This document shows, piece by piece, positions 15,240-60,527 of a stretch of 64,000 bases of DNA (within the stretch, counting starts at the first letter, position 1; every line of letters begins with the position of its first letter). The stretch is from contig NZ_SOAZ01000004.1 in NCBI RefSeq assembly GCF_004364155.1, forward strand, positions 62,001 to 126,000. The letters run 5' to 3'. Origin of the DNA: Fonticella tunisiensis. Its GTDB lineage: Bacteria; Bacillota; Clostridia; Clostridiales; Caloramatoraceae. The position numbers were made by a program, and so were the translations under genes. Under the pieces are notes generated by a model, which saw only the letters and a list, made by a program, of their open reading frames with translations, did no database searches and was not told the DNA's origin.

Positions 15240-15480
15240 CAAACAAAAAACCTCAATCCACAAAGGGACCGAGGTATCGTATCGGTGGTACCACCCTAAT
15301 TGGTGCAAATGCACCCACTTAATTTCATAACGGTAGAAATCCGCTGAGGCCTATGAAAATCATTCAGCCCAGAACTCCGAGGCGGGTTCAAGGTTATCCT
15401 CTGGAAATCTCACACCATATGATTTCCTCTCTGAAAAAGGCTTACCCTTTACTATTCCTCTTCATGGTCCTAAAATATTC
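15240..15480 (-). promoter_or_regulatory. T-box leader of proS
   Basis: On the minus strand the leader carries the T-box sequence AGGGTGGTACCACC (15297-15284), the antiterminator bulge that pairs with the uncharged tRNA 3' end. It is followed by a terminator, ACCTCGGTCC pairing (with two G-U) to GGATTGAGGT and then TTTTTT (15275-15245). A Stem I-like region lies between about 15300 and 15475, containing an AGAGAGG segment and a CCCGCC stretch that could supply a proline specifier codon. Uncharged tRNA-Pro should promote readthrough into proS. The specifier assignment is not certain. The 220 bp further upstream show no gene. Confidence 0.92.
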
Positions 15481-40561: not shown

Positions 40562-41719
40562 TTGGATAAAATAAAGGTAATGACCATATTTGGAACAAGG
40601 CCTGAGGCTGTTAAAATGGCTCCCCTTGTTAAGGAACTTGAGTCAAGAAAAGAAATAGAATCCATCGTTTGCGTTACAGCCCAGCACAGGCAAATGCTTG
40701 ATCAGGTTTTAAATTTGTTTGATATAACACCAGATTACGACCTCGATATAATGAAGGAAAGGCAGTCCCTTTCAGGAATAACCACAAGGGTTCTTGAAGG
40801 GCTTGAAAGGATATTTGAGAAGTCAAAGCCGGATATAGTACTTGTACACGGAGATACAACCACAACCTTTGCAGGGAGCCTTGCAGCTTTTTACAATAAA
40901 ATAAAGGTTGGACATGTTGAAGCAGGCCTTAGAACCTTTAACAAATACTTTCCCTTTCCTGAGGAGATGAATAGAAAGCTTACAGGTGCTATGGCGGATA
41001 TGCACTTTGCACCAACGGCAACATCAAAGGAAAACCTTTTAAGGGAAGGCATAAGGGAAGAGGATATATTCGTTACCGGAAATACAGTAATAGATGCAAT
41101 GGCCACAACGGTTGATAAGGAATATTTTTTTGAAACTGAGGATCTCAGGAACATAGACTTTAAGAACAGGAAGGTCATAATGATAACTGCCCATAGAAGG
41201 GAAAACTGGGGTAAGCCACTTGAAAACATATGTACAGCTTTAAAGAGAATTGCTGAGGACTTTGAAGACGTTGAAGTAGTATATCTTGTTCACCTCAATC
41301 CTGTGGTGAAGGAAACTGCCTACAGCATACTCGGCGGAACTGACAGGGTACACCTTCTTCCACCACTTGATACCAAGGAAACCCATAACCTTATGGATAG
41401 AAGCTATCTCATATTAACGGACTCAGGCGGCCTTCAGGAGGAAGCGCCCCATCTTGGAAAACCGGTACTTGTATTAAGGGATGTAACCGAAAGGCCCGAG
41501 GCTGTTAAAGCAGGAACCGTAAAAGTCGTTGGAACTGAGATAGACAGGATATATAATGAAACTGCTGAACTTCTTAAAAATGAAGAGAAGTACAATAGCA
41601 TGGCCAATGCAGTTAACCCATATGGGGACGGGAATGCCTCAAAGAGGATTGTTGACAGTATACTATATTATTTCAACAGGATTGACAAAAGGCCGGAGGA
41701 TTTTGTACCTTCAAGGTAG
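40562..41719 (+). CDS. wecB: UDP-N-acetylglucosamine 2-epimerase, non-hydrolysing
   Basis: WecB/MnaA interconverts UDP-GlcNAc and UDP-ManNAc for surface polymers. The 385 residues start with KVMTIFGTRPEAVKMAPLVK and carry VHGDTTTTFAGSLAAF near 94, GHVEAGLRTFNKY near 115, PFPEEMNRKL near 129, and TDSGGLQEEAPHLGKPVLV near 285. I prefer TTG 40562, which follows AGAGGTGG and gives the family opening; ATG 40541, overlapping the tagO stop, is possible but lacks a good site. It forms an operon with tagO. Confidence 0.94.
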   Translation: MDKIKVMTIFGTRPEAVKMAPLVKELESRKEIESIVCVTAQHRQMLDQVLNLFDITPDYDLDIMKERQSLSGITTRVLEGLERIFEKSKPDIVLVHGDTTTTFAGSLAAFYNKIKVGHVEAGLRTFNKYFPFPEEMNRKLTGAMADMHFAPTATSKENLLREGIREEDIFVTGNTVIDAMATTVDKEYFFETEDLRNIDFKNRKVIMITAHRRENWGKPLENICTALKRIAEDFEDVEVVYLVHLNPVVKETAYSILGGTDRVHLLPPLDTKETHNLMDRSYLILTDSGGLQEEAPHLGKPVLVLRDVTERPEAVKAGTVKVVGTEIDRIYNETAELLKNEEKYNSMANAVNPYGDGNASKRIVDSILYYFNRIDKRPEDFVPSR

Positions 41720-41855: not shown

Positions 41856-41883
41856 TTGAAATTTATATTTAAACTGATAAAAT
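41856..41883 (+). promoter_or_regulatory. Promoter of the atp leader/operon
   Basis: TTGAAA (41856-41861), 16-nt spacer, TAAAAT (41878-41883). A start near 41890 would put the structured leader at the 5' end of the transcript. Confidence 0.5.
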
Positions 41884-41889
41884 AATTAT

Positions 41890-42020
41890 ATGTTCAAAGG
41901 TTGGACAGCAGCCCCTGGGGAGGCTGTCAAGCCATGGTGCAACCTACTTGCAGGCGTTTATCTCTAAAAAGGATAGATGTAGGCTGGTATCCACAGGAGG
42001 ATGCCAGCTTTGGCTTTTTT
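41890..42020 (+). ncRNA. Structured leader with terminator in front of the ATP synthase operon
   Basis: GGTTG (41899) pairs with CAACC (41940), enclosing GACAGC/GCTGTC (41904-41909 with 41923-41928). A second helix is CTAC/GTAG (41944, 41979) around TATC/GATA. Then GCTGGTATCC (41983-41992) pairs with GGATGCCAGC (41999-42008), followed by TTTGGCTTTTTT, an intrinsic terminator 90 nt before atpI. This is the arrangement of an attenuator or riboswitch, or of a short independent RNA. It matches no class I know. Confidence 0.55.
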
Positions 42021-42110
42021 GAAAGTTTTAAATAATGCTAAAAGGCGTTACTTTTTAAAATTAAGGATAAACTAAAAAGCGAAGGTAAATTAATATAAGA
42101 AAGCCGGACG

Positions 42111-42503
42111 GTGAATAATTTGAATCAGAGCATAAACAGCCTTATGTTAAAAAGGTTAGGAGCCGGATTTATAACTGCTGCTGTAATCAGTTTGTTTGTT
42201 TACGCATTCCTTGGAATGTATGGGCTAAAATCCTATTTCATAGGTTTTTTACTGAGCGCCCTAAATTTTATACTTCTTTCCTTGGAGTTAAACACCATTC
42301 TTGAAATAAGACCGAAAAGGTCAAGGGTATACCATCTTATATTTTTCCTGATAAGGTACATACTAATTGGGTATGTAATAGTTCAGGCGGTGAAAAACGA
42401 TAATGCCAATGTATTTTTAATATTTGGAGGACTTATTACAATGAATTTTTCCATTGTTATAAATGCTTCCCTGAATCATTTCATACGGAGGAAGGTGAGC
42501 TAG
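42111..42503 (+). CDS. atpI: ATP synthase subunit I (AtpI-like)
   Basis: This 130-residue membrane protein has four hydrophobic helices and sits first in the atp operon, the place of the AtpI assembly factor, which helps c-ring assembly. Sequence conservation is low (ALNFILLSLELNTILEIRPKR, HLIFFLIRYILIGYVIVQA), so the name rests mostly on size, topology and position. The start is GTG 42111; TTG 42120 is an alternative. The atpB ATG follows the stop directly (TAGATG). Confidence 0.8.
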   Translation: MNNLNQSINSLMLKRLGAGFITAAVISLFVYAFLGMYGLKSYFIGFLLSALNFILLSLELNTILEIRPKRSRVYHLIFFLIRYILIGYVIVQAVKNDNANVFLIFGGLITMNFSIVINASLNHFIRRKVS

Positions 42504-43205
42504 ATGGGAGAGGTCAAAACGTTATTTGAATTTACCATTGGTGGATTGAAGTTTGGTATAACCTATTCAGTTGTTGCCCAGTGGATTGTAATGATTTTTA
42601 TCATGCTTATGGTACTTCTAATAAGGGGCAGGATGAATGATGTGCCGAGGGGGATTCAGGTATGGGTTGAGACCCTTGTTGAGACTATAAATAGTCTTGT
42701 CCGAAGCAACATGGGAGAAAAATATGAAAAATTTACTCCCTTCGTTGGAACACTTATGATTTATCTTTTACTTCTAAATCTTTTTGGACTTACAGGATTT
42801 AGGCCGCCAACTGCAGATTATAGTGTGGCACTGGGGCTTGCCATCATATCCTTTGTCCTTATACATGCAACTGCAATAAGGAACAATGGAATAAAGCATT
42901 ATCTTAAAGGGTATACCCATCCCTATACAGCAATGCTGCCTCTTAACATCGTTGAAAGGCTTGTAGTTCCGGTTTCATTGAGCCTTCGACTTTTTGGAAA
43001 TATAACAGCAGCTGTTATACTTGTTGAACTTATATATGACGGCCTCGCCTATCTGTCGGGGGTATTGCATCTTGGCATACCGCTACTACAGGCGGTTATA
43101 CCAATACCATTTCATGTATACTTTGACCTGTTTGACGGGGCTATACAGATGTTCATATTTGTTATGCTAACTATGATATTTATAAAAACTACATCAGATC
43201 ATTAA
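42504..43205 (+). CDS. atpB: ATP synthase F0 subunit a
   Basis: Subunit a forms the ion half-channels beside the c-ring. The 233-residue membrane protein has the essential arginine in SLSLRLFGNITAAVILVEL (near residue 160-178), preceded by the ERLVVPVSLS segment and followed by AVIPIPFHVYFDLFDGAIQMFIFVML. The N-terminus lacks a Sec-type signal. It immediately follows atpI, with GGAAGGTGAGCT upstream of ATG 42504. Confidence 0.96.
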   Translation: MGEVKTLFEFTIGGLKFGITYSVVAQWIVMIFIMLMVLLIRGRMNDVPRGIQVWVETLVETINSLVRSNMGEKYEKFTPFVGTLMIYLLLLNLFGLTGFRPPTADYSVALGLAIISFVLIHATAIRNNGIKHYLKGYTHPYTAMLPLNIVERLVVPVSLSLRLFGNITAAVILVELIYDGLAYLSGVLHLGIPLLQAVIPIPFHVYFDLFDGAIQMFIFVMLTMIFIKTTSDH

Positions 43206-43475: not shown

Positions 43476-43486
43476 TTAAATCCTGC

Positions 43487-43523
43487 GGCTTGCTCTATTC
43501 ATGTAAATGAATTGAAGCAAGCC
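43487..43523 (+). promoter_or_regulatory. Intra-operon hairpin after atpE
   Basis: GGCTTGCT-C-T-ATTCAT (43487-43502) pairs with ATGAAT-TGA-AGCAAGCC (43507-43523). Only TTCTT follows, so termination would be partial. Position behind the c-subunit gene suggests uneven expression or mRNA stabilisation. Confidence 0.55.
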
Positions 43524-43563
43524 TTCTTAAAATTGAAAGCCATATATTGGAATACAGTTGAAG

Positions 43564-43650
43564 CTAATTTAACGTGTGGTGCTAGTTCTTTCTTCATATA
43601 TTTTTATCTCCGCTTTTTTATAAAAGAATTAGCATAATAAGTTAATTTAA
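43564..43650 (+). mobile_element. Miniature MITE copy inside the atp operon (copy 6)
   Basis: 87 bp between atpE and atpF. Left end AATTTAACGTGTGGTGCTAG and right end ATTAGCATAATAAGTTAATT are degenerate terminal repeats. Only one inner repeat, CATATATTTTTATCTCCGCT, remains. No stop or promoter is obviously introduced. Confidence 0.7.
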
Positions 43651-43721
43651 TAATAGTTTAAAGATTTAGTTTAAGTAGCGCCAGTAATTTGTCTTAAACC
43701 CCTTCAAAAGGAGGAGAGCAT

Positions 43722-60338: not shown

Positions 60339-60377
60339 TGCAAGGTAAAATTGAAAAATATAATTGAAAAGGTTATG

Positions 60378-60527
60378 CCTTATCAAGAGAGGTGGAGGGA
60401 CTGGCCCGATGAAGCCCGGCAACCGATGGCTGTGCCATAAAGGTGCCAATTCCTGCGGAATGGTTACATTCTGGTAGATGAGGTTCTGAAAAGTTACCTC
60501 TTCTCGCGAGAAGAGGTTTTATTTTGT
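60378..60527 (+). promoter_or_regulatory. SAM-I riboswitch (S-box) with terminator
   Basis: Aptamer about 60378-60485: P1 CCTTATC/GATGAGG, AAGAGAGGTGGAGGGACTGG, GATGAAGCCCGGCAACC and GGTGCCAATTCC are the class hallmarks. The expression platform is the terminator ACCTCTTCTCGCGAGAAGAG (60496) followed by TTTATTTTG. SAM binding should favour termination before metK, giving feedback control. Confidence 0.97.

Follow-up and report, generated by a model that had tools for sequence, protein, structure and literature searches.

A conserved structured RNA in front of the F-type ATP synthase operon of Fonticella tunisiensis and Caloramator: a candidate transcription attenuator

RESULTS

Genes and promoters at the atp locus

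The DNA analyzed here, a 64-kb stretch referred to as the window, is part of a 3.1-Mb genome whose genus has no other representative; its family also contains Caloramator and Thermobrachium celere. On the forward strand, the atp operon begins with atpI (positions 42120 to 42503 from the start codon TTG at 42120, or from GTG at 42111; PF03899, E = 6e-6), continues with atpB for subunit a (42504 to 43205; PF00119) and has atpE 3' of atpB, all three genes being identified by Pfam. Between atpI and the gene for UDP-GlcNAc 2-epimerase, which ends at 41719, lies a structured leader RNA of about 130 nt (41890 to 42020, forward strand), its start being estimated from the promoter. This promoter (41856 to 41883, forward strand) consists of the -35 element TTGAAA, a 16-nt spacer and the extended -10 element TGATAAAAT, which has the form TGnTAAAAT, giving TTGAAA-16-TAAAAT as a whole. 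It was the top-scoring site of the region in a consensus scan (11.4, with a matrix of our own), and the equivalent position in all five Caloramator homologs carries TTGAAT-16-TGnTAAAAT; the promoter that had been called here in an earlier sequence-only reading is thus borne out.

The spacer between the terminator of the leader and atpI (42021 to 42119, forward strand) contained no convincing promoter, its best site scoring 4.2, a value matched by 69% of shuffles; expression of the atp genes of the window from the leader promoter would therefore need readthrough. The spacer between atpE and atpF (window positions 43476 to 43721) is unusually long, at 246 nt, with strong hairpins (z = -3.3) and no recognizable terminator, and is apparently shorter in the Caloramator relatives on an approximate reading. 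Elsewhere in the window, a T-box leader (15261 to 15474, reverse strand) and a SAM riboswitch (60377 to 60484, forward strand) are ordinary Rfam matches.

Three consecutive hairpins

The helices of the leader, all on the forward strand, had been described as nested; they are present, but follow one another as three hairpins, and pairing of the second can reach into the 5' arm of the third. Hairpin P1 (41899 to 41933), which is supported by covariation, is built of GGUU/AGCC, then GACAGC/GCUGUC, an AG/AG internal loop (41910-41911 opposite 41921-41922) and CCC/GGG. Hairpin P2 (41954 to 41980) was found by prefix folding to carry an extension, P2ext, which brings the whole to 41950 to 41984; its pairs G41950-C41984 and C41951-G41983 flank a tandem A.G/G.A mismatch, its GCAG and AGGC strands are invariant across the members, and it shares the AGGC at 41981-41984 with the 5' arm of the terminator. 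The terminator-like hairpin, P3 (41981 to 42010), has a 12-bp stem and the loop ACAGGA; 100% of the alignment cells of this helix are paired, and two of its pairs have changed on both sides. It is followed in the sequence by TGGC and a T6 tract (42011 to 42020, with T6 at 42015-42020).

A strong terminator 90 nt before atpI had been proposed from the sequence. The hairpin, the T6 tract and the distance (90 to 99 nt, depending on whether GTG 42111 or TTG 42120 is the start, or roughly 90 to 100 nt) agree with this, but the T-run is set 4 nt off the stem by TGGC, whereas in the Caloramator homologs it follows the stem directly; the terminator of the window is not a textbook one, unlike theirs. 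The RNA from 41890 to 42030 has a folding energy of -56.4 kcal/mol compared with -40.8 +/- 3.5 in shuffles (z = -4.46; 0 of 200 as good). With the terminator removed, the first 96 nt give a z of only -2.0, and much of the excess stability must therefore come from the terminator. For the leader outside the terminator, the case is one of sequence comparison among relatives, not of folding energy.

Homologs and covariation

A blastn search of the leader against 40 relatives returned no match beyond itself, and homologs were recognized only by inspecting the sequences that precede atpI within the family. Each of the five Caloramator-genus genomes examined (group g2, with T. celere counted among them) has a homologous RNA at the equivalent place before atpI, with the same order of promoter, P1 (CAGCC...GGAGG), P2 (GGCAGAC...GUAGGCC) and terminator, the last of the form GGCCGGUACC...GGUACCGGCC-U5 or close to it. 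A covariance model built from these five members alone, with the window left out (R1), matches the window at 41887 to 42016 with 35.0 bits (E = 9e-6), a score that is weak by itself and not decisive, since chance loci in the family that have only a terminator reach up to 31 bits. Homology is carried by the placement, which is identical, by conservation of the promoter and by the cores of P1 and P2, which do not vary. A second model (R2), built without the terminator and with helix 2 misaligned by one column, had the window leader as its single match in the 64 kb (17.6 bits, E = 0.033).

In the alignment of the six members, 94.4% of the cells pair, compared with 31 to 47% when the alignment is slid, and 13 pairs have changed on both sides, a number reached by 0 of 500 shuffles. 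Nine of the 16 pairs of P1 are among those changed on both sides, while its CAGCC...GGAGG core is invariant. The RNA stands directly before atpI in all six members, and the gene upstream differs, encoding UDP-GlcNAc 2-epimerase or thiolase; it is thus with atpI that the leader stays. The sequence-only reading had turned on whether related clostridia conserve the RNA before their atp operons, and they do so in 5/5 Caloramator genomes, with the double-changed pairs given above.

P1 and the extended P2 have a motif in common, 5'-C-AG-N-C ... G-N'-AG-G-3', which is a tandem A.G/G.A internal loop closed by C-G (the CAG/AGG form). All six members have the loop motif unchanged in each of the two hairpins, and N-N' varies, being C-G in P1 and A-U or G-U in P2. 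A search of both strands of the 64-kb window for a tandem pair of CAG/AGG hairpins gave the leader as the single match, and 40 random sequences of the same 64-kb length gave one match between them; the descriptor was drawn up after the sequences had been seen, and these counts are consequently support, not proof.

Distribution

A search with R1 of 391 sampled genomes of the class found the window only, and a scan of viral contigs gave no match. A motif pattern search across genomes returned the five Caloramator members and five unrelated matches, none of which scores with R1; the one in Clostridiaceae that was inspected falls in a coding region. The leader RNA was not seen in the atpI upstream regions of other Caloramatoraceae genera, and nothing similar precedes atpI in genera g4 and g8. 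Of 29 regions preceding atpI across the order, those with a terminator no more than 160 nt from atpI all came from Caloramatoraceae; terminators before atpI elsewhere in the order belong to the preceding gene. The structured RNA is real and conserved and, as far as sampled, is limited to Caloramator and the genus of the window.

Three observations were made on the side. In genus g7 (L008, L009, L010 [reverse strand] and L011), a TAAAAT promoter before atpI is followed directly by a short hairpin of the ACCGATATC/GATATCGGT type and a T-run, which lie close to atpI. Genera g3, g5 and g6 of the same family gave no F-type AtpB match in a genome search, which suggests that they have lost or replaced the F-type ATP synthase. 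In Caloramator sp. mosi_1 (L013/L014), atpB appears as two matches with an internal TGA, the result of either a frameshift or an error in assembly.

Four of the five Caloramator genomes have a strong promoter, TTGACA-17-TATTAT or TATGAT, in the stretch from the terminator to atpI, scoring 12.6 to 13.1 (reached by 0.1 to 0.3% of shuffles); no second promoter was found before atpI in the window or in SKW282, the fifth Caloramator member. The downstream promoter lies some 50 to 75 nt past the terminator in L004, L005, L007 and L014, where it is preceded by a conserved block, TTTCTGACAA, right behind the terminator.

Comparison with known RNA families

At gathering thresholds, no Rfam 15 family matches the leader of the window or its five homologs, and the chance that this is an unrelated ncRNA already described, the other point on which the sequence-only reading had turned, found no support there. 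In E-value mode, the matches were all far below threshold, and those inspected fell mostly on the terminator stem. The T. celere member gave weak matches to the L20, pyrG and trpB leaders (23 to 27 bits), far below their gathering scores and with alignments that cover essentially the terminator hairpin only. Neither the Na+ riboswitch DUF1646 model nor any other Rfam riboswitch matched the leader of the window down to E = 10. As a family, the RNA is absent from Rfam; attenuation as a mechanism is already known.

Predicted order of folding

In prefix folding of window transcripts, P2ext has a probability of 0.76 to 0.97 in those ending at 41985 to 42005 and of 0 at 42010. The same holds across the members: in 6/6, P2ext reaches about 0.8 to 1.0 before the 3' arm of the terminator is made and is then displaced, and by predicted energies the completed terminator beats P2ext by 2.9 to 6.5 kcal/mol. 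This order gives the RNA the anatomy of an antiterminator and terminator, with an antiterminator that would need help to win. In the window, a later competition was also predicted between the lower stem of P1 and an AAGCCA/UGGCUU helix just before the T-run; it was not seen in the homologs. A leader peptide was considered and discarded: after GGGGAGG, a frame of 33 codons is open in the window, but the homologs have stops or no start there, T. celere excepted.

DISCUSSION

Computational analysis of the region before the atp operon revealed a promoter and a three-hairpin RNA with covarying pairs and a duplicated loop, in which P2ext and P3 pair exclusively and P2ext comes first. We marginally favor the reading that this leader attenuates transcription of the F-type ATP synthase operon, a model for which two of the expected parts are found: a promoter, a leader and an intrinsic terminator before the first gene (with the T-run of the window 4 nt off the stem), and a helix overlapping the terminator, P2ext, that energy predictions make mutually exclusive with P3 in all six members. 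RNA polymerase would start at the promoter (41856 to 41883) and make P1 and then P2 with P2ext, which would occupy the AGGC at 41981-41984 that also forms the base of P3. By default, the emerging 3' arm of P3 would displace P2ext, and part of transcription would stop in the T-run at about 42020; a factor acting in trans, probably a protein reading the CAG/AGG loops of P1 and P2ext, or else a ligand, might hold P2ext in place and so allow readthrough into atpI. We infer the conditional readthrough, as well as the existence, nature and signal of such a factor, from this anatomy. A counterpoint is that P2ext extends only two or three base pairs past the tandem mismatch: the two inner pairs never vary, so that covariation does not test them, and the outermost G-C pair is U.U in the window.

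The main rival is a separate small RNA, about 130 nt long, that would run from its own promoter to its own terminator and act in trans or by binding a protein, while atpI is served by a further promoter. The conserved promoter of the leader, the very strong Caloramator terminators and the second strong promoter about 50 nt on in 4/5 Caloramator genomes all fit this; a promoter there would bypass an attenuator, and in those genomes the RNA may act, perhaps additionally, as a small RNA. A small RNA merely neighboring the operon, an option that had been raised from the sequence, thus draws on the downstream promoter of most Caloramator homologs but finds none in the window, nor is there one in SKW282, and P2 overlaps the terminator arm in every member. 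The conserved positions lie in stems and internal loops, unlike those of a base-pairing small RNA; the linker and the hairpin loops vary among the members, and no conserved unpaired seed was found in them. The conserved internal loops speak for binding of a protein or a ligand. Overall, we consider a separate small RNA somewhat unlikely. That the element is a passive boundary, at which an upstream or spurious transcript carrying a stable 5' hairpin simply ends without regulation, is hardly probable at all: in g7, the equivalent region does combine a TAAAAT promoter like the present one with no more than a short hairpin ahead of atpI, but a boundary of this kind leaves unexplained why the promoter is conserved, why P1 covaries and why invariant AG/AG loops are present twice.

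A true riboswitch, in which the leader would bind a small molecule or ion signaling energy or ion status and so control the terminator, is improbable, even though the anatomy resembles riboswitch expression platforms. A large conserved unpaired core, a pseudoknot and a junction are all absent, and the Rfam searches of the window leader speak against it as well. In an alignment with the Na+-specific c ring 1YCE, the Gln and Ser of that ring, residues that we take to mark Na+ specificity, are replaced by Thr and Ala in the c subunit encoded here, making Na+ coupling unlikely. Na+ riboswitches (DUF1646 motif) are reported to precede V-type ATPase genes in enterococci and clostridia, as well as genes that carry an ATP synthase component annotation (PMC9337991). 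They resemble the present leader in being terminator-bearing leaders before clostridial ATPase genes with ON-switch logic (PMC9337991) and differ from it in their helices, in the absence of any Rfam match here and in the c subunit, which does not look Na+ binding. The view that control of an atp operon by a riboswitch-like leader is without example in Firmicutes needs qualifying by the DUF1646 precedent (PMC9337991), which is a different RNA.

Protein-dependent antitermination offers further parallels. In ANTAR-target leaders (EutV/NasR type), two hairpins in a row are followed by an intrinsic terminator whose 5' arm the second overlaps, a layout identical to the one found here (PMC3369931), and the window genome and the Caloramator genomes encode one ANTAR protein each. 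The second hairpin of our leader does overlap the terminator, but ANTAR hairpins are 3-bp stems with A1/G4 hexaloops, whereas here an AG/AG internal loop is set in longer stems; two A1/G4 hexaloops were not found, such loops being unconserved, differently positioned where present and missing in T. celere. We regard an ANTAR target as very improbable. RAT sites of BglG/LicT/SacY-type antiterminators are hairpins with an internal loop that overlap the 5' arm of a terminator. Compared by description, they have one hairpin and serve sugar genes, while the leader has two hairpins with symmetric AG/AG loops and precedes an atp operon. RAT-type antitermination is also described in the introduction of PMC3369931; proteins with a CAT_RBD domain occur in 13 of 17 family genomes, with no obvious link to the leader.

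The attenuator, first proposed from the sequence as riboswitch-like, is thus upheld as far as conservation, covariation, exclusive helices and the lack of a known family go; for a riboswitch in the strict sense of small-molecule binding the case is weaker, and an antiterminator held by a protein would account for the leader no less well. In the literature searched, we found no report of conditional termination before an F-type ATP synthase operon in Firmicutes and nothing on point for an attenuator or riboswitch of the atp operon in clostridia.

As a tentative proposal, possible but not probable, an uncharacterized RNA-binding regulator, perhaps a dimer, might recognize the two CAG/AGG loop hairpins and set expression of the whole atp operon in Caloramatoraceae, tying it to an energy or growth signal via termination. 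The duplicated loop is a concrete bait for finding such a regulator, and a conserved, uncatalogued RNA before the atp operon would open the control of ATP synthase levels in anaerobic thermophiles to direct testing.
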